From SAR202 cluster bacterium (GTDB taxonomy: Bacteria > Chloroflexota > Dehalococcoidia > Lucifugimonadales > Lucifugimonadaceae), in contig VFGU01000010.1 in assembly GCA_009392285.1 (NCBI GenBank), forward strand, positions 1-60,704: DNA of 60,704 bases. Reading direction: 5' to 3'. Every line of letters starts with the position of its first letter. Position 1 is the stretch's first letter. Made by a program: the position numbers and the translations under genes. The notes beneath the pieces were generated by a model, which saw nothing but the letters and a program-made list of their open reading frames with translations, was not told the origin of the DNA and did not search any database. This document shows positions 3,703-60,704 of this stretch, one piece after another.

Positions 3703-3741
3703 AATTATCCTTTTATGTTATATATAATTAATTCGAGTCAT

Positions 3742-3770
3742 ATATTATAACTTGATATGATCTATGTCAA
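3742..3770 (-). promoter_or_regulatory. Probable sigma-70 promoter of clpP
   Basis: On the minus strand a perfect TTGACA (3765-3770) is followed after 17 bases by TAATAT (3742-3747). An overlapping TATAAT lies at 15-base spacing. It is about 40 bases upstream of the clpP ATG, in the gap behind tig, so clpP can be transcribed independently of the aspS-tig unit. Confidence 0.7.
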
Positions 3771-3783
3771 CATTAAATATTTT

Positions 3784-5052
3784 TTACTTTAGTGCAATAT
3801 CCTTAATTTTTTCTAGTAATTTCTCTCTTTTTAAAGAATACTTAATTTCACCAGATACTTGCTCTTCAGAAAACTGAGAGTTGTTTTGCTGCTTTTTCCA
3901 TTTTTCCATCTCTTCTTGAACTTTTTCTTCTTGCACTTCTATTTCATAATGAGTCATTACTTCTTCAATAACTAGGGCTCTCTTTATCCTATTCTCTGCA
4001 GCAATCTTTAATTCTTCCTCAAAAGTTTCTTCTGTCTGATCAATTTGTTTTAAATAATCATCAAATTCAATTTTTTGATTCTTGATCATTTCCTTTTGCT
4101 GATCTATTAAAGCGTTAGTTTCTTGCTCAACCATTAATTCAGCAATTGTAAATTTAGAAGAATCAACAGCCTGTTTAATGTATTCATCCCACAATTCTTG
4201 ATCCCATTTATTATCAGCTGTAGTTTGAAGATTTGTTTTAATTAACTTTTTCAATCCTTTTAAATCTTCTACATTCGGATCAACAATTTTTGCAAATGAA
4301 TCATCTATTTCAGGTAATTCTTTTTCTTTGATTTCATGCAATTGAACATTATATTCTGCAGTTTTATTTCTAAACTTTTCACTGAGATAATCATCGGGCA
4401 ATTCAATATTAAATTTCTTTTTTTTATTTTTTTCCATTCCAGAAATCTTTTTCATTAACCCCGGCATTTTAAGGTTTTCTTCAAACTTTAAGTCAAGTAA
4501 TAGATCTATAGAAGAATGATTCATTACTTCTTCGTCATCTACTTCACACTTAAAATCAATGGTAACTAAATCTCCCATTGCAGCTTTCCTAGAAACAGGA
4601 GCCCATGTTCCATTTTGATCCCTAATTTCATCGATTACCTTATTTACTTCTTTAGCAGATACTTTTTCCTTCTCAACATCAACTTTTATTTTTTCTAAAT
4701 TCAATAATTCAGTGATTGGCTTTAATGCAATCAAAGCTTCAAGTTTCAATTTTGGCTGCAGGTCTATTATGGATACCTTTGGAGTAGAGAAGAATTCAAT
4801 ATTTTCTTCTTGTATTGCCTTATTAACTAAATCTGGCACTGCATACTCCAGGGACTCCTCAACTATTCCTTCTATTCCTACTATTTGTTCAATAATTGAC
4901 ATAGGAGCTTTACCTTTTCTAAATCCTGGAATCTTTAACCTGTTACTCAACTTGGCTGATGCCTTTTGTAAATGATTATTTATTTCATCATTATCAACTT
5001 CAAGGGTTAATTTTAATTGCTGACTTTCAATTTTTCCTTTATCAATTTTCAA
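3784..5052 (-). CDS. tig: Trigger factor (ribosome-bound chaperone / peptidyl-prolyl isomerase)
   Basis: Folding chaperone that docks on L23 at the exit tunnel. The 422 residues show the N-terminal ribosome-binding domain with the signature GFRKGKAP at about 43-50. An FKBP-like middle domain (about 155-245; MGDLVTIDF, MPGLMKKISGM) and a long helical, very Lys/Glu-rich C-terminal domain follow. The ATG overlaps the aspS stop by 4 bases (ATGA), so it is translationally coupled to aspS. Confidence 0.95.
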   Translation of the reverse strand: MKIDKGKIESQQLKLTLEVDNDEINNHLQKASAKLSNRLKIPGFRKGKAPMSIIEQIVGIEGIVEESLEYAVPDLVNKAIQEENIEFFSTPKVSIIDLQPKLKLEALIALKPITELLNLEKIKVDVEKEKVSAKEVNKVIDEIRDQNGTWAPVSRKAAMGDLVTIDFKCEVDDEEVMNHSSIDLLLDLKFEENLKMPGLMKKISGMEKNKKKKFNIELPDDYLSEKFRNKTAEYNVQLHEIKEKELPEIDDSFAKIVDPNVEDLKGLKKLIKTNLQTTADNKWDQELWDEYIKQAVDSSKFTIAELMVEQETNALIDQQKEMIKNQKIEFDDYLKQIDQTEETFEEELKIAAENRIKRALVIEEVMTHYEIEVQEEKVQEEMEKWKKQQNNSQFSEEQVSGEIKYSLKREKLLEKIKDIALK

Positions 5053-8729: not shown

Positions 8730-9173
8730 TCATATTATTTTTGACATCAAAATAGCATCATCAATTGGGTCTTTATAGTAATCTTTTCTAATACCATCAA
8801 TATCAAATAGAAAATTTTTATAAAGTTTTATAGCAACTTTATTCTTATTTGCAACTTCTAAAATTATTTTCGAATTCACTTTTTTATTACCAAGAAAATC
8901 TGACATTAGCAAAGAAGCTATACCTTTCTTTCTGTAATATGAACCCACAGCAATAGAGATTATTTCATATATATTTTCAGTGACATTTAGAGATAGCAAA
9001 TAACCAACTATGCTTTTTTCTTTAGCAGCAACAATAATTTCATAATTCTTCTTATTAAAAAAATTTAAGAAATCTAACCTTTTTGTTAATGCTTTAAACG
9101 ACTTAGAGTTAAGATTATTGAGGTTTTTCAAATCAAATTCATTTGCTTTTCTAATTTTTAAACTATTTTTCAT
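8730..9173 (-). CDS. GNAT-family N-acetyltransferase (RimI-like)
   Basis: A 147-residue acetyl-CoA-dependent acyltransferase. The acetyl-CoA binding motif appears as VGSYYRKKGIASLLM around residues 77-91, followed by LEVANKNKVAIKLYKNFLF, the usual last strand and helix of RimI-like enzymes. RimI modifies the N-terminus of ribosomal protein S18, but the substrate cannot be read from sequence. It is a single gene, convergent with fdxA. Confidence 0.8.
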   Translation of the reverse strand: MKNSLKIRKANEFDLKNLNNLNSKSFKALTKRLDFLNFFNKKNYEIIVAAKEKSIVGYLLSLNVTENIYEIISIAVGSYYRKKGIASLLMSDFLGNKKVNSKIILEVANKNKVAIKLYKNFLFDIDGIRKDYYKDPIDDAILMSKII

Positions 9174-54054: not shown

Positions 54055-54405
54055 ATGGAAGATTCGATAATAATAAGAAATATTGAGGTTTCCTGTTTAA
54101 TTGGAATAAATCAGGAAGAAAAAATAAATCCTCAGCCGATTATAATCAATTTAAAATTATTTACTTCATTTACAAAAGCATCGCAAAGTGACCAAATAGA
54201 AGACACTGTCAATTATTCGGTATTAGTTAAATCTGTAAAAGAATTTACTAGTAAATCTAGATTCAATCTTTTAGAAACTATGGGTGAAAAATTATCTGAA
54301 AAAATTCTTGAAGATAAAAAAATAAAAGAAGTTGAAATAGAAGTAATAAAACCTAATGCACTAACGTCAGAAAGAGTATCAATCATTATAAAAAGGAGTA
54401 ATTAA
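54055..54405 (+). CDS. folB: Dihydroneopterin aldolase
   Basis: Second folate gene in the pair; splits dihydroneopterin to hydroxymethyl-dihydropterin and glycolaldehyde. The 116 residues show IRNIEVSCLIGINQEEKINPQ with the conserved Glu, VNYSVLVKSV and NLLETMGEKLS. It begins at the base after the folE stop. A tRNA-like remnant begins at the base after its stop. Confidence 0.92.
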   Translation: MEDSIIIRNIEVSCLIGINQEEKINPQPIIINLKLFTSFTKASQSDQIEDTVNYSVLVKSVKEFTSKSRFNLLETMGEKLSEKILEDKKIKEVEIEVIKPNALTSERVSIIIKRSN

Positions 54406-54505
54406 TGACGCCCCTGCCGTTATTGGAGCACAGAGGGCACTCGGTTCTAAGGATAGTTAAAACGAATAAGGTTGCAGATTATCTTTTATAGGCTATCCTG
54501 ATTTT
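54406..54505 (-). pseudogene. Decayed tRNA-Arg (CCT) copy
   Basis: On the minus strand the 3' end CAGGGGCG, followed by TCA in place of CCA, and the T-arm, variable loop and anticodon region (TCCTTAGAACCGAGTG) match the intact tRNA-Arg at 57296-57371 with substitutions. The T-stem is no longer paired and the loop TTCGA is changed. A D-arm trace (AGGATAG) lies beyond an extra 30 or so bases. No 5' acceptor strand is found. Even the 8 bases before it (aattaatg) match those at the intact gene. Confidence 0.75.
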
Positions 54506-54528
54506 AGAAAAATAATTAAAATCAAGTA

Positions 54529-55620
54529 ATGTTATCTATAGGGTGTTTAAGAGAGAATAATGATGATGATTTCAGAGTATCCTTATCTCCGGAAACATCA
54601 AAAAAATTAATTAAAAAAAATATCAAAGTCTTTGTTCAAGAAAATTGCGGATTGAAATCTGGATTTAATAATAAAGATTATGAAAATGTTGGCGTAAAAA
54701 TATTGAAATCATCAGAATCTGTAATTGAAAATTCTGATATTATAATATCTGTAAACCCATTAGATATAGAATATGAAAAGATTTCAAAAAATACGAAATC
54801 AAAAATTTTCATAGGGAACTTCAATTTTAATAATTCTATTCCAGATAGTCGATTCACATTTCTAGCCCTAGAAAGAATTCCAAGAATTGCGAGAGCTCAA
54901 TCTATGGATATATTATCTTCTCAAGCATCAATTGCTGGCTATCAATCCTCGCTGCTTGCTGCAAATCATCTAAAAAAATATTTTCCTATGTTGATTACTG
55001 CTGCCGGGACAATATCACCAGCAAAAATCTTGGTAATAGGTGCAGGAGTAGCTGGATTACAAGCAATAGCAACGTGCAATAGATTAGGAGCTAGAGTAAC
55101 TGGATTTGATATTAGAGAATCTACTAAAGAGCAAGTGGAAAGTGTTGGCGGAAAATTCTTAGAATTAAATTATGAGTATGATGACTCTGATAAACAAGGT
55201 TATGCAAAAGAGCAAAGTTTAGATAAACAAGAAAAACAAAATGAGATGCTATCAAAATATATTCAAAGCTCAGATTGTGTAATTACAACAGCATCAATTC
55301 CTGGAAAAAAGGCTCCTCTGATAATTACCAAAAAAAATGTTGAAAATATGAATTTTGGAAGTGTAATTATTGACTTAGCAGGAGAGTCTGGAGGCAATTG
55401 TGAAATAGGTGATTATGGCGAAGTAACTAACTTTTCAGGGGTAATAATCGATAAACCCAAAAACATAACTAATTTAGTTTCTGAACATTCAAGTTTAGTT
55501 TTTTCAAGAAATGTAGAAGCTTATTTAAATTTAATTATTGATGAGAATAAAATTAATTTAGATCCTAATGATGAAATAATTAAATCTACCAATCTTAATT
55601 TGGAGGCTAAAATTGAATGA
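54529..55620 (+). CDS. pntAA: NAD(P) transhydrogenase alpha subunit, NAD-binding part
   Basis: Soluble domain I of proton-translocating transhydrogenase, which makes NADPH from NADH using the proton gradient. The 363 residues resemble alanine dehydrogenase: RVSLSPETSKKL at the start, RAQSMDILSSQASIAGYQ, the nucleotide fold KILVIGAGVAGLQAIATCNRLGA (glycine-rich turn about 168-175) and TTASIPGKKAPLI. The alpha chain is split, as in Rhodospirillum and many others. The next gene overlaps by 8 bases. Confidence 0.95.
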   Translation: MLSIGCLRENNDDDFRVSLSPETSKKLIKKNIKVFVQENCGLKSGFNNKDYENVGVKILKSSESVIENSDIIISVNPLDIEYEKISKNTKSKIFIGNFNFNNSIPDSRFTFLALERIPRIARAQSMDILSSQASIAGYQSSLLAANHLKKYFPMLITAAGTISPAKILVIGAGVAGLQAIATCNRLGARVTGFDIRESTKEQVESVGGKFLELNYEYDDSDKQGYAKEQSLDKQEKQNEMLSKYIQSSDCVITTASIPGKKAPLIITKKNVENMNFGSVIIDLAGESGGNCEIGDYGEVTNFSGVIIDKPKNITNLVSEHSSLVFSRNVEAYLNLIIDENKINLDPNDEIIKSTNLNLEAKIE

Positions 55621-55909
55621 TGAATTGTATTTAATTTTGATTTTCATAATGGCAATGCTACTAGGATATGAATTGATAAAAAAAATTCCACCAACATTAC
55701 ATACCCCTTTAATGTCTGGCACAAATGCAATTTCAGGAATTGTAATTATTGGGTCAATATTAGTTATTACATCTGCATCCAGCCTAACAGTAAATATACT
55801 GGGTTTTATATCTCTAGTTTTAAGTAGCATAAATGTTTTTGGTGGCTTCACGGTAACCGACCGAATGTTAGAAATGTTTAAGAAACCTAAAAAAAGGGAT
55901 AAGGATTAA
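55613..55909 (+). CDS. pntAB: NAD(P) transhydrogenase alpha subunit, membrane part
   Basis: A 98-residue protein with three membrane helices, the separate membrane part of the alpha chain. PLMSGTNAISGI is the conserved motif facing the proton path. The C-terminus FGGFTVTDRMLEMFKKPKK is typical. Start TTG, overlapping pntAA; pntB starts at the next base after its stop. Confidence 0.95.
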   Translation: MNDELYLILIFIMAMLLGYELIKKIPPTLHTPLMSGTNAISGIVIIGSILVITSASSLTVNILGFISLVLSSINVFGGFTVTDRMLEMFKKPKKRDKD

Positions 55910-57295
55910 ATGGATTCAATTCATATAATTTTATACTTTATTTCTTCAATTTTATTTATATTAGGAATAAAAATGTTGAGTAGTCCATTAATCGCAAGAA
56001 GAGGAAATATAATTTCTTTCCTTGGAATGATAATAGCAATTATAACTACCCTCTCATATGTTGAATATGAAATTAGCTCTATTATCTATATCTTTTCTGG
56101 GATAACTACAGGTGGGATTTTAGGGTTAATATTTGCCAAGAAAGTACAAATGACTTCCATGCCACAAATGGTTGCTATTTTTAATGGGTTAGGAGGATTA
56201 GCATCATCTTTAATTGCATTTTCAGAAATTATTAAAGTTAATAACACAATTTCATTTAACCTTATATCTGTAAGCATTTTAATGAGCATACTGATTGGAT
56301 CTGTAACCTTTTCAGGAAGTATTACTGGATTCTTAAAATTACAATCTCTTATTACAGGAAAACCCATACTAATTCCATTAAGAAATTATTTTAATCTTTT
56401 AATATTATTGTCTGCAATTGGATTGATGATTGTTTCAGTTCTTTATTCAGGCAATACATTAATATTTTATACTTTGTTAGGTGTATGTCTTCTGCTTGGC
56501 ATCCTAATTGTGTTGCCAATTGGGGGAGCTGATATGCCTGTAGTGATAGCTTTATTGAATTCCTATTCCGGAATTGTTGCAGCGTTCACTGGATTCATTT
56601 TTAGTAATGTCGCTTTAATAATTAGTGGATCTTTAATTGGTGCTTCAGGATTGATACTTACAAGAATAATGACAAAGGCAATGAATAGATCGCTTGTAAA
56701 TGTTGTTCTAGGTGGATTTGGAGCTACTGCTACTAATATTGACTCAGAAGCATCTGATAAAAATTATAAATCTGGATCTAGTGATGATATTGCATCACTT
56801 TTAGAATATTCTGAAAATATTATTATTATTCCTGGATATGGACTTGCGGTTGCACAAGCTCAACATTCATTAAAAGAGTTATTAGACGTTCTTGAAAATC
56901 AACAAAAAAATGTCCTTTTTGCTATTCATCCTGTTGCAGGGAGAATGCCTGGGCACATGAATGTTCTTTTAGCTGAAGCAAATATTGACTATGAACTTTT
57001 ATTAGATCTTGATCAAGTAAATGAAAAATTTTCACAGACTGATGTATCAATAGTAATTGGTGCAAATGATGTGGTTAACCCTGCAGCCAAATTAGATAAA
57101 AATAGCCCAATATATGGCATGCCAATTCTTGAAATAGAAAAGTCTAAATCAATAGTTGTTTTAAAAAGATCAATGAATCCAGGTTTTGCAGGTTTAGACA
57201 ATAATATTTTTTATAATGAAAAAACCTTAATGTTATTTGGAGACGCAAAAGATTCTATAGATTCATTAAATAAATCATTTAAAGAATTGAATTAA
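55910..57295 (+). CDS. pntB: NAD(P) transhydrogenase beta subunit
   Basis: A 461-residue subunit with about nine membrane helices (to about 260) and the NADP-binding domain III (about 290-461). It has VPGYGLAVAQAQH-type binding (here IPGYGLAVAQAQ), HPVAGRMPGHMNVLLAEA, VIGANDVVNPAA and MPILEIEKSK. The stop codon is immediately followed by the 3' end of tRNA-Arg on the other strand. Confidence 0.96.
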   Translation: MDSIHIILYFISSILFILGIKMLSSPLIARRGNIISFLGMIIAIITTLSYVEYEISSIIYIFSGITTGGILGLIFAKKVQMTSMPQMVAIFNGLGGLASSLIAFSEIIKVNNTISFNLISVSILMSILIGSVTFSGSITGFLKLQSLITGKPILIPLRNYFNLLILLSAIGLMIVSVLYSGNTLIFYTLLGVCLLLGILIVLPIGGADMPVVIALLNSYSGIVAAFTGFIFSNVALIISGSLIGASGLILTRIMTKAMNRSLVNVVLGGFGATATNIDSEASDKNYKSGSSDDIASLLEYSENIIIIPGYGLAVAQAQHSLKELLDVLENQQKNVLFAIHPVAGRMPGHMNVLLAEANIDYELLLDLDQVNEKFSQTDVSIVIGANDVVNPAAKLDKNSPIYGMPILEIEKSKSIVVLKRSMNPGFAGLDNNIFYNEKTLMLFGDAKDSIDSLNKSFKELN

Positions 57296-57371
57296 TGGCG
57301 CCCCTGCCGTGATTCGAACACGGGACACCCGGTTTAGGAAACCGGTGCTCTATCCTCTGAGCTACAGGGGC
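57296..57371 (-). tRNA. tRNA-Arg (anticodon CCT)
   Basis: Minus strand: acceptor GCCCCTG pairs with CAGGGGC, then G and encoded CCA. The anticodon arm CCGGT-TTCCTAA-ACCGG gives CCT. D-arm AGCTCAGAGGATAGAGC and T-arm CCGTGTTCGAATCACGG are normal. Length 76 with CCA. It reads AGG codons. It abuts the pntB stop codon. Confidence 0.97.
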
Positions 57372-57443
57372 ATGATTTAGTATTCTATCGAATTTTATCT
57401 TTATCAGTATTTATTTCTATAGTAAAAAGAAAAAATTCTATCT

Positions 57444-57449
57444 TATAAT
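57444..57449 (+). promoter_or_regulatory. Possible -10 box of the carboxyltransferase gene
   Basis: TATAAT ending 7 bases before the ATG at 57457, with no Shine-Dalgarno; no convincing -35 is seen at the usual distance. Fits a leaderless start. Confidence 0.35.
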
Positions 57450-57456
57450 TATATTT

Positions 57457-58986
57457 ATGAAAAAGATTAATTTTATGGACACTTCTTTTCGTGATGGTTT
57501 TCAGTCATGTTACGGGGCAAGAGTTAAAACAGAAGATTTTATACCAATATTAAAGGCTGCAGTTGAAGCCGGTAATAACAATTTTGAAATTGGCGGAGGA
57601 GCAAGATTCCAAAGTCTTTATTTTTATTGCCAAGAAGATGCCTTTGATATGATGGATAAATCTAGAGAAATTGTCGGAAAAGATATCAATTTGCAAACCC
57701 TAGCAAGAGGTGCAAATGTTGTAGGGTTAGAATCTCAATCAAGGGATATAATTGATCTTCATGCAAAATTATTTAAAAAGCATGGCATTACCACTATAAG
57801 GAATTTTGATGCTCTTATGGATATTAGAAATTTATCTTATTCAGGAGAGTGTATAACTAATGCAGGTCTAAATCATCAGATTGTTATTGCTCTTATGGGA
57901 CTACCTCCAAGTTTAAATGAGAAATACTTTCATTCTGCAGATTTCTATACTGATAAATTAAAAGAAATATTAAAAGCCGATATTCCGTTTGATAGTTTAG
58001 CGTTTAAGGACGCATCTGGAACAACACCCCCATCCATAGTTTATGATTCTGTGAAAAATGCCAGAAAATTATTACCCAAAGACACAACGATTCAATTCCA
58101 TACACATGACACAGCCGGCATGGCTATATCAAGTAATATGGCAGCGATAGAAGCTGGAGCAGATATTATAGATTTAGCAATGTCACCAGTAAGTGGAGGA
58201 ACTTCACAAACCGATATCTTGTCAATGTGGCAGGCATTGAGAGGCACGGAATATACCTTGGATATAGATGAAGAAAAGATACTAGAAGTAGAAAAATCTT
58301 TTATAGAACAAATGGAAAAATATTATCTTCCTCCAGAAGCAACTGCAGTTAATCCTGTAATTCCTTTTTCACCAATGCCAGGAGGAGCTCTCACTGCAAA
58401 TACACAAATGATGCGAGATAACGGAACTCTAGATCTCTTTGTAAAAGTGATCGAGAATATGAGAGAAGTTGTAGCAAAAGGTGGCTTTGGAACTTCTGTT
58501 ACTCCTGTTTCACAATTTTATTTTCAACAAGCGTTTATGAATACTGTTCAAGAAAAATGGTCAAAAATTTCTGAAAATTATGGAAAAATGATTCTTGGTT
58601 ATTTTGGTAAAACTCCTACAGATCCTGACTCTGAAATCATGAAAATTGCATCAGATCAACTATCTTTAAAACCTACCAATGAAGATGTCCACGACCTAAA
58701 TGATGCAAATCCTAATTTAGGCATTGAATACAACAAGAAATTGCTCAAGGAAAAGAACATAAAAATCACAGATGAGAATATTTTCATATCTGCTACTTGT
58801 GGAGAAAAAGGAATGACTTTCTTAGAAGGAAATGGCCAACTAGGTGTGAGATACGTAAATGATATGGAAGAAACTATAGTTGATACAAATTCTTCAGAAA
58901 CTGAGAATCTTGGTAAAAATGCTTATAAAAAAACTCTATCCGTTGATGGAAATATATACGAAGTTACAATTGACCCGAAAGAATAA
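57457..58986 (+). CDS. Biotin-dependent carboxyltransferase (pyruvate carboxylase B / oxaloacetate decarboxylase alpha type), no biotinyl domain
   Basis: A 509-residue protein with the HMGL-like barrel (DTSFRDGFQSCYGAR at the N-terminus, the carbamylated-lysine motif AFKDASGTTPP near 187, metal histidines in HTHDTAG). The PYC_OADA helical domain follows (FSPMPGGALTANTQM, VKGGFGTSVTPVSQFY-like). Family members often end with a biotinyl domain carrying AMKM; here the chain ends at VDGNIYEVTIDPKE, where that domain would begin. The biotin carrier must be a separate protein. The substrate may be pyruvate/oxaloacetate, but other acyl substrates are possible. Confidence 0.87.
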   Translation: MKKINFMDTSFRDGFQSCYGARVKTEDFIPILKAAVEAGNNNFEIGGGARFQSLYFYCQEDAFDMMDKSREIVGKDINLQTLARGANVVGLESQSRDIIDLHAKLFKKHGITTIRNFDALMDIRNLSYSGECITNAGLNHQIVIALMGLPPSLNEKYFHSADFYTDKLKEILKADIPFDSLAFKDASGTTPPSIVYDSVKNARKLLPKDTTIQFHTHDTAGMAISSNMAAIEAGADIIDLAMSPVSGGTSQTDILSMWQALRGTEYTLDIDEEKILEVEKSFIEQMEKYYLPPEATAVNPVIPFSPMPGGALTANTQMMRDNGTLDLFVKVIENMREVVAKGGFGTSVTPVSQFYFQQAFMNTVQEKWSKISENYGKMILGYFGKTPTDPDSEIMKIASDQLSLKPTNEDVHDLNDANPNLGIEYNKKLLKEKNIKITDENIFISATCGEKGMTFLEGNGQLGVRYVNDMEETIVDTNSSETENLGKNAYKKTLSVDGNIYEVTIDPKE

Positions 58987-58988
58987 TA

Positions 58989-59147
58989 TTAAAATATAGA
59001 CCCTAAAATAGGTGCAAATAAACTCATAATAAGCATTAAAACTAGAATAAGGGTTAAAAACCTTTTGGTCATTTCAAAAAGCCTCTTCCTAATCTGTTGC
59101 TTAATTTGTTGCTTTATTTGCTCTCTATCTAATTCTTCTTGATTCAT
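58989..59147 (-). CDS. Small single-pass membrane protein (52 residues)
   Basis: Not recognised. Minus-strand frame from ATG at 59147: a Gln/Lys-rich amphipathic N-terminus with IKQQ repeated, then a hydrophobic helix (about 30-50) ending ILGSIF. TAGAAT lies six bases before the ATG, giving the same leaderless layout as neighbours. It faces the beta-propeller gene (71-base gap) and ends 2 bases from the carboxyltransferase stop. Confidence 0.55.
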   Translation of the reverse strand: MNQEELDREQIKQQIKQQIRKRLFEMTKRFLTLILVLMLIMSLFAPILGSIF

Positions 59148-59200
59148 AAACTTATTCTACACTCTATCTAATTTATGCCTTATATGATGTAAATCTTAAT

Positions 59201-59219
59201 TTTGTATAAACTATACAAA
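59201..59219. promoter_or_regulatory. Perfect inverted repeat at the start of the beta-propeller gene
   Basis: Arms TTTGTATA (59201-59208) and TATACAAA (59212-59219) around AAC. The last base is the A of the ATG. The repeat covers a -10-like TATAAA (59205-59210) that lies 8 bases before the ATG. Probable operator. Confidence 0.6.
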
Positions 59220-60704
59220 TGAGGGTTACGCTTAAATATTTAATTGTAGTTCTTGTAGTATTATTATTCATTCCAGAATTTTCAGTGCAAGCTCATCAAT
59301 TTGAAATAAAAGATGATAGAGTTCAATTCTTTGATAGGCCTACTCTAGACGGAAGGATGGTATTTTCTGTCAAACTAAAAGACAAGTCTAATCATGATCT
59401 TTGGATAATGGATGCAGACGGAAGTAATATACGTCACCTCACTGATACAGATTATAACGAAATCGATCCTACCATATCGCCAGATGGACGACAGGTTGCC
59501 TTTGCACATGATAAAGATGGAGGGTGGAGAATAAGTATAATGGATATAGATAATCCCGGGCCCAAAGACCCATGGCCAATTACATTTTACGATCACCAAA
59601 GACATCCAGACTGGGGAGACAATGGCTTGATTGCCTTTCAGTCAAACCAAGAAGGAAAGTGGAGTATATGGTCAAAAGATCCATTTATGAAAGGCGATCT
59701 TTACGGGAAAGACCTTAAGGAAGAGTCTAATATTAAAGTATGGGATGGAAAAGAAGTGGATAATGATGTGAAAAAGCCCTCCTACAGTAAAGACGGAAAG
59801 TATTTAGCTTTTGCTACAAATAGAGATGGCCCATTTGGAGATACAAACAAAATAAACCGAATATGGGTCTTGGATAGGCAAAAAGGTCTATCAAAGGAAA
59901 TACCTCGTTCGATGGTGAAGCAAGGCGATGATCCTGAATTTTATAAAGGAAGAAATTGGTATCCAAATGCAAATGGTCAACCTGTAATTGCGTTCGTACA
60001 AATAAAGGATAAAAGGCCAACAATAAGATGGACAAACATAGATGGGTCAGGAGGTGGAAGACTTACTGATAAGATGCCTGGTAATGTCTCAGCAAAAAAC
60101 CCTAAGTTTGGTCCCGAAAGATCACAAGAAGTATTGGCTTTCTTAACTGAGAAAAGTCCTAATGCTGGATGGAAAATTGCAGTAATGGACATTCACAGAG
60201 GACAAGACATGCCTCCTTTTATTGTTACTCCTCCCTCAATGGGTGCATCTATAAGTTCTTTCGATTGGGGACCTCATCCTAAAAATAATACTAGGTCACA
60301 ATCGCAAGGCACCAAGATTAATCCAGGAGGCACTAATAATAATATGGATGATTTTGATGAGAAAATGAGAAAAAAACAAGTTGAGTTTGAAAATGAGATG
60401 AGAGAATTAGAAAATGAGCAAAGAATTAGAAGGAACCAAATGGAAGATGAGATGAGAAGGAATCAAGACTTATCTAGAGAAGAAGAGGAAAGGCTAAGAA
60501 TGGAAGCTGATAGAGAAATGGAAAGAGAAAGAGAAGAGATGAATAGGAGAATACTTGAACAGGAAATGGAACTCGAAAGAGAAAGACTAAGGATGAATCA
60601 GGAGATGATGGATGAGCAAATGAGAATGGAACAGGAAAGAATGGAACAGCAGAGAGAGATGATGAAAAATATGGATGGTGCTGGAGGTCGTGACGATTTC
60701 TTTC
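59219..60704 (+). CDS. Secreted TolB-like beta-propeller protein with a Met-rich charged helix (3' end outside window)
   Basis: Open from ATG 59219 to the window end (495 codons seen). A signal peptide is clear (MRVTLKYLIVVLVVLLFIPE, cleavage probably after SVQA). PD40/TolB-type blades follow: HDLWIMDADGSNIRHLT, TISPDGRQVAFAHD, ISIMDIDNPG, PSYSKDGKYLAFATN, RWTNIDGSGGGRLT, up to about residue 355. A linker of Asn/Gly/Ser leads to about 110 residues (375-487) of almost pure Glu/Arg/Met/Gln/Asn helix with about 18 methionines and no proline. The last residues seen (DGAGGRDDFF) leave this helix. Function unknown; surface scaffold or binding protein are options. Confidence 0.85.
   Translation, partial: MRVTLKYLIVVLVVLLFIPEFSVQAHQFEIKDDRVQFFDRPTLDGRMVFSVKLKDKSNHDLWIMDADGSNIRHLTDTDYNEIDPTISPDGRQVAFAHDKDGGWRISIMDIDNPGPKDPWPITFYDHQRHPDWGDNGLIAFQSNQEGKWSIWSKDPFMKGDLYGKDLKEESNIKVWDGKEVDNDVKKPSYSKDGKYLAFATNRDGPFGDTNKINRIWVLDRQKGLSKEIPRSMVKQGDDPEFYKGRNWYPNANGQPVIAFVQIKDKRPTIRWTNIDGSGGGRLTDKMPGNVSAKNPKFGPERSQEVLAFLTEKSPNAGWKIAVMDIHRGQDMPPFIVTPPSMGASISSFDWGPHPKNNTRSQSQGTKINPGGTNNNMDDFDEKMRKKQVEFENEMRELENEQRIRRNQMEDEMRRNQDLSREEEERLRMEADREMEREREEMNRRILEQEMELERERLRMNQEMMDEQMRMEQERMEQQREMMKNMDGAGGRDDFF

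Follow-up and report, generated by a model that had tools for sequence, protein, structure and literature searches.

In the SAR202 cluster bacterium described here, pnt, an energy-metabolism operon, is set between an intact tRNA-Arg gene and a worn partial copy of the same gene, which comprises the 3′ half alone. The window, i.e., the whole stretch of 60,704 nucleotides that was analyzed, is the whole of contig C10 of its assembly (G000), which comprises 751 kb and is 56% complete. The locus contains the following features.

54055–54405, plus strand: folB (Pfam PF02152), chromosomal flank outside the proposed cassette
54400–54407, minus strand: shared flank aattaatg past the tRNA 3′ end, including the folB stop codon; also present at 57290–57297
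54406–54453, minus strand: degenerate tRNA-Arg copy covering the 3′ half (approximately nucleotides 33–76), putatively the displaced fragment at the far end of the cassette
54529–55620, plus strand: pntAA (Pfam PF05222/PF01262), putative cargo
55613–55909, plus strand: pntAB (Pfam PF12769), putative cargo
55910–57295, plus strand: pntB (Pfam PF02233), putative cargo; its stop codon abuts the 3′ end of tRNA-Arg
57296–57371, minus strand: intact tRNA-Arg(CCT) with encoded CCA (ARAGORN; Rfam RF00005, 66.7 bits), the presumed integration target, which would have been restored after insertion
57330–60704, no strand assigned: 5′ half of tRNA-Arg, a carboxylase gene, and the start of a β-propeller-like gene, 98.9% identical to contig C24 of the congener G006

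An earlier note on this DNA had placed the tRNA-Arg(CCT) on the minus strand with its 3′ end at 57296, followed downstream by pntB, pntAB, and pntAA. ARAGORN and Rfam RF00005 bear out the former, and Pfam the latter. Its remark that no integrase remains holds as well: the ORF listing contains no integrase ORF between 54406 and 57296, and PF00589 finds no match in the whole of the 56%-complete G000 assembly.

When the gap between folB and pntAA is compared with the whole assembly by BLAST, the sole significant match besides itself is 57290–57334 (E 1.3e-5). The similarity contains an exact run of 12 bases, cgcccctgccgt (54409–54420), and gapped alignment extends the copy to 54453, into the anticodon loop, with 39 of 47 aligned columns being identical to tRNA-Arg. 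The copy starts at nucleotides 33–38 of the tRNA, varying with the alignment. The two halves of the tRNA were scored separately against dinucleotide shuffles (n = 2000). Herein, the 3′ half (nucleotides 32–76) scores 38 versus a shuffle maximum of 20, none of the 2000 shuffles being as good, and the 5′ half is at chance, with 213 of 2000 shuffles being equally good. The degenerate, same-orientation tRNA copy proposed at 54406 is thus confirmed by BLAST and by the shuffles, and the coordinates, the orientation, and the exact run of 12 bases stated in the earlier note are correct; the shared aattaatg is present as well. The covariance-model search that had been suggested for the copy turned out differently, in that the Rfam tRNA model gives no match to it.

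The same locus is built differently in two congeners. G002 shows the order folB, purT, half copy, pnt, and intact tRNA-Arg. In its gap between purT and pntAA, the 3′ half scores 55 and the 5′ half is at chance; the copy starts at nucleotide 32, in the anticodon loop. G001 shows the order folB, pnt, remnant, enolase-superfamily gene, and intact tRNA-Arg. The 3′ half scores 27 versus a shuffle maximum of 20 in the gap between the enolase gene and pntB, where a 5′ half is missing, and shuffle scoring of the gap between pntAA and folB in this genome reveals no scar. The missing 5′ half in G000, G002, and G001 argues for a half copy rather than for a whole tRNA that has decayed. A third congener, G003, carries another gene directly after folB, with neither pnt nor tRNA-Arg nearby, and purT is found in no congener other than G002. 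Taken together, the relatives show that several gene cassettes were inserted at the same tRNA-Arg. No congener offered an empty site, at which folB would directly adjoin an intact tRNA-Arg in the absence of pnt; half of the congeners are without the whole locus, perhaps because of incompleteness. These genomes are fragmentary, and six of the ten show no pnt, with five of those six also being without folE. An automatic check of 27 other pnt loci (from G006 and from 26 relatives at a greater distance) revealed no tRNA-Arg beside pnt. In G051, which belongs to a different family, the end of pntB likewise adjoins tRNA-Arg(CCT) (L087 4477–5997). This genome was considered as a carrier of the same cassette and rejected, as its PntB falls into a distant clade and the adjacency is independent.

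Regarding the origin of the operon, a PntB tree, as the earlier note had called for, unites the three copies linked to folB and the tRNA with that of G006 (support 100/98). No foreign source is indicated by this phylogeny, and pnt is not recognizably foreign. The grouping with a congener fits relocation or re-acquisition within the genus better than the arrival of an alien island. A PntB scan of the genome contigs returned no congeners; within the order, the PntB of G121 shows full identity to its counterpart in a MAG of an uncultured Chloroflexi (L147), which makes Chloroflexota the probable phylum of the order. In G006, pnt sits between gluconokinase and the opp genes, within a pentose-phosphate cluster, and these neighbors are adjacent without pnt in G000, G002, G003, G005, and G008. 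This emptied place suggests that the lineage lost pnt there, holding it at tRNA-Arg in G000, G001, and G002. Between the window and G002, fourfold-site identity amounts to 75% in pnt (245/326) versus 59% in the folE-side neighbors (305/516; Fisher p 1.8e-6). Individual pnt genes reach 69 to 77% (75–77% for the two long ones) versus 48 to 69% in the other 18 genes compared, and DNA identity rises from 79 to 89% left of the end of folB to 89 to 96% inside the cassette. The lower fourfold divergence of pnt implies that the block was exchanged at a later time than its neighbors, which allelic homologous recombination could explain equally well as movement of a cassette.

On the opposite side of the anticodon loop, the similarity to G006 C24 runs from tRNA nucleotide 42 to the contig end; in C24, the match stops at this nucleotide, and cassettes start there. 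Other compared proteins of the two genomes are 48 to 60% identical, and the carboxylase of this flank occurs in no congener other than G006. Misbinning of C24 was considered and rejected, because its sucC is 53% identical to that of the window genome and single-copy in G006, marking C24 as a genuine G006-type contig. It consists of the carboxylase gene, a 5′ half, a 627-aa gene, a 5′ half, a 498-aa gene, and a 5′ half, with the intact tRNA-Arg of G006 being located on a different contig. Hence, the right flank of the window looks like the unoccupied form of these 5′-half insertions, the flank having passed from one lineage to another. Its identity possibly stems from a transfer that happened recently, or else from a chimeric assembly at the tRNA. 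The pnt side is independent of this flank because G002 matches the pnt side through the tRNA.

One further 5′ half is present on contig C10 of G002. Behind the 5′ halves, roughly 100 conserved bases with TTTGTTGTCT repeats form a stretch that, of 149 genomes, G006 and G002 alone possess and that, in G006, precedes single-gene cassettes (L041 6687–6840, 8838–8985, 10558–10669; L047 7560–7660). The TTTGTTGTCT repeats may represent integrase arm sites. Since the 5′-half scars end at nucleotides 35 to 39 of the tRNA of their own genome, the anticodon loop is the meeting point of 3′-half and 5′-half scars. Such 5′ halves, ending at nucleotides 35 to 39, are present in G024 and G020, too. In G020 (L081 8189–10941), the intact tRNA-Arg is accompanied by an inverted tRNA-Arg 5′ half, znuA, and a tyrosine integrase that carries a helix-turn-helix at its N terminus, the integrase being located between the inverted 5′ half and the tRNA. 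On each of the viral contigs L224, L225, and L227, a PF00589 integrase accompanies a tRNA-Arg 5′ half; when a 30-base stretch of the 3′ half was searched for in viral contigs, no exact match turned up. The 225-aa protein encoded next to the 5′ half of G002 yielded no relative in Pfam, PHROG, or viral searches. An apparent 5′ half in G052 was rejected, as it is part of a complete tRNA-Arg(CCG).

An intact integrative element of 5 kb exists at another tRNA of the genus, namely tRNA-Pro(TGG) on contig C17 of G006 (L073 3723–8899). The gene order is tRNA-Pro (3723–3799), an endonuclease-like gene (PHROG), small genes, a tyrosine integrase (PF00589; 7692–8669), and an exact copy of tRNA-Pro nucleotides 33 to 77 (8855–8899). 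The identity of this repeat carries on past the CCA, like the shared flank of the tRNA-Arg scar. In the tRNA-Pro element, the structure proposed for pnt is preserved intact. At a further tRNA, tRNA-Met(CAT), G002 and G008 share the position of a tyrosine recombinase gene, directly behind the tRNA (L075 7657–8863; L076 8089–9291).

The stretch 54406–57296 is best explained, with a probability of roughly two in three, as a pntAA-pntAB-pntB cassette inserted at the anticodon loop of tRNA-Arg(CCT), with pnt having been relocated or re-acquired and the integrase having been lost or acting in trans. Recombination at the anticodon loop would insert the cassette, and the incoming DNA would carry a replacement 3′ half, by which tRNA-Arg would be restored. 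The old 3′ half would be displaced to the far end beside folB and decay there. As the cassette is without an integrase, the enzyme would have been lost or supplied in trans. Serial insertion would account for purT between folB and the scar in G002 and for the enolase-superfamily gene between the intact tRNA and the scar in G001. That the mechanism was site-specific recombination, and in which direction the events ran, is what we infer from this arrangement. The tRNA-targeted integration advocated in the earlier note is thus upheld by the geometry, the recurring half scars in G002 and G001, the ends in the anticodon loop, and the integrase element of the genus; a foreign pnt is not supported, and the empty site that it called for was not found. 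Counted against the cassette are these two points, the missing integrase, and the scarless pntAA-folB gap of G001.

Tyrosine recombinase–independent exchange has to be weighed against this cassette insertion. DNA of a related cell may have been exchanged by homologous recombination via tRNA (and pnt) homology without any integrase, the half copy being an illegitimate join. Anchored at the tRNA, this process would leave much the same trace; it agrees with cassettes devoid of integrases and with pnt occupying the same place in G000, G001, and G002, where allelic replacement would explain the lower synonymous divergence. However, in several genomes and to either side of the tRNA, the boundaries of the scars fall on the same handful of anticodon-loop bases, unlike random illegitimate joins, and the genus possesses an integrase element with the same breakpoint. 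Such an exchange is a serious but clearly less probable explanation. Plain duplication of the whole tRNA-Arg gene with decay of one copy, the alternative raised in the earlier note, would suit the divergence of the copy (39/47 columns), and some upstream positions loosely match a D arm. It is disfavored and very improbable, because the 5′ half is at chance in the gaps of all three genomes while the 3′ half beats all shuffles, and because the remaining family members, in G006 and G002, consist of nothing but a 5′ half. Least probable, if by a narrow margin, is a tRNA-like 3′ half kept for a function of its own, such as a terminator, processing, or regulatory element. The element does persist across lineages with about 40% fourfold-site difference, but it is antisense to the folB-pnt reading direction, its flank and spacing differ between G000 and G002, it is missing from the same gap in G001, and it has no convincing Rfam match. 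Moreover, pnt is less diverged than its neighbors, so the scar may postdate the species split.

Cassette insertion places the pnt locus among the known tRNA-anchored additive islands, which are already described in other marine bacteria. In “Candidatus Actinomarinales,” stacked cassettes with partial tRNA repeats form additive flexible genomic islands (PMC7771536). Likewise, a partial tRNA direct repeat here ends a small cassette, and the content at tRNA-Arg varies between close relatives, with pnt in G000, purT and pnt in G002, and enolase and pnt in G001. The Actinomarinales islands belong to another phylum and involve several tRNAs in one envelope island (PMC7771536), whereas the present system combines one tRNA-Arg with a metabolic operon and contains both 3′-half and 5′-half scars. 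The repeats of fGI-2 in “Candidatus Methylopumilus” are the last 20 bp of tRNA-Lys (PMC10872708). This island resembles the pnt locus in its repeats of a tRNA end part, its additive nature, and its streamlined planktonic host; it differs in tRNA and lineage, and the fragment here extends from the anticodon loop to CCA. Tycheposons are described as measuring 4 to 200 kb and, in Methylophilaceae, as carrying a tyrosine recombinase (PMC10872708). They share with pnt the anchoring of cargo DNA at a tRNA in streamlined plankton. Measured against a tyrosine recombinase and a length of at least 4 kb, the pnt stretch falls short, with 2.9 kb and no recombinase. Islander lists 3760 islands with 3′ fragments and 159 with 5′ fragments (of 3919), and 2083 anticodon-centered sites (PMC4383910). 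As in these tDNA islands, an intact tRNA and a same-orientation fragment mark the two ends, and the fragment starts at one of the known crossover subsites (anticodon loop, T loop, or T/acceptor junction), namely the anticodon loop (nucleotide 32 in G002 and 33–38 in the window); in Islander, too, anticodon-centered crossovers and 3′ fragments are the most frequent. Islander demands an integrase gene inside (PMC4383910), yet the pnt cassette is without one. Furthermore, 5′ fragments are rare there (159/3919) but frequent at tRNA-Arg in this genus.

That both halves of a single tRNA are used, and that cassettes share an end, is less usual. Speculatively, the one tRNA-Arg gene might serve the genus as a two-sided dock, although we consider this doubtful. 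Integrase-less, mostly single-gene cassettes would enter with either the 3′ half (the pnt, purT, and enolase side) or the promoter-bearing 5′ half (G006 and contig C10 of G002). The shared end of about 100 bases with TTTGTTGTCT in the 5′-half cassettes would herein be recognized by a recombinase acting in trans, resembling an integron on a tRNA gene.

For the biology of these bacteria, the pnt locus illustrates how a metabolic operon of core type can change its position in a streamlined genome and persist in the variable zone beside a tRNA. Gene turnover by tRNA cassettes, until now known from Actinomarinales in the sea and Methylophilaceae in freshwater, is extended to a probably marine lineage of Chloroflexota. 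The recurring half-tRNA scars provide a simple search rule for cassettes that are missed by island finders demanding an integrase, such as Islander.
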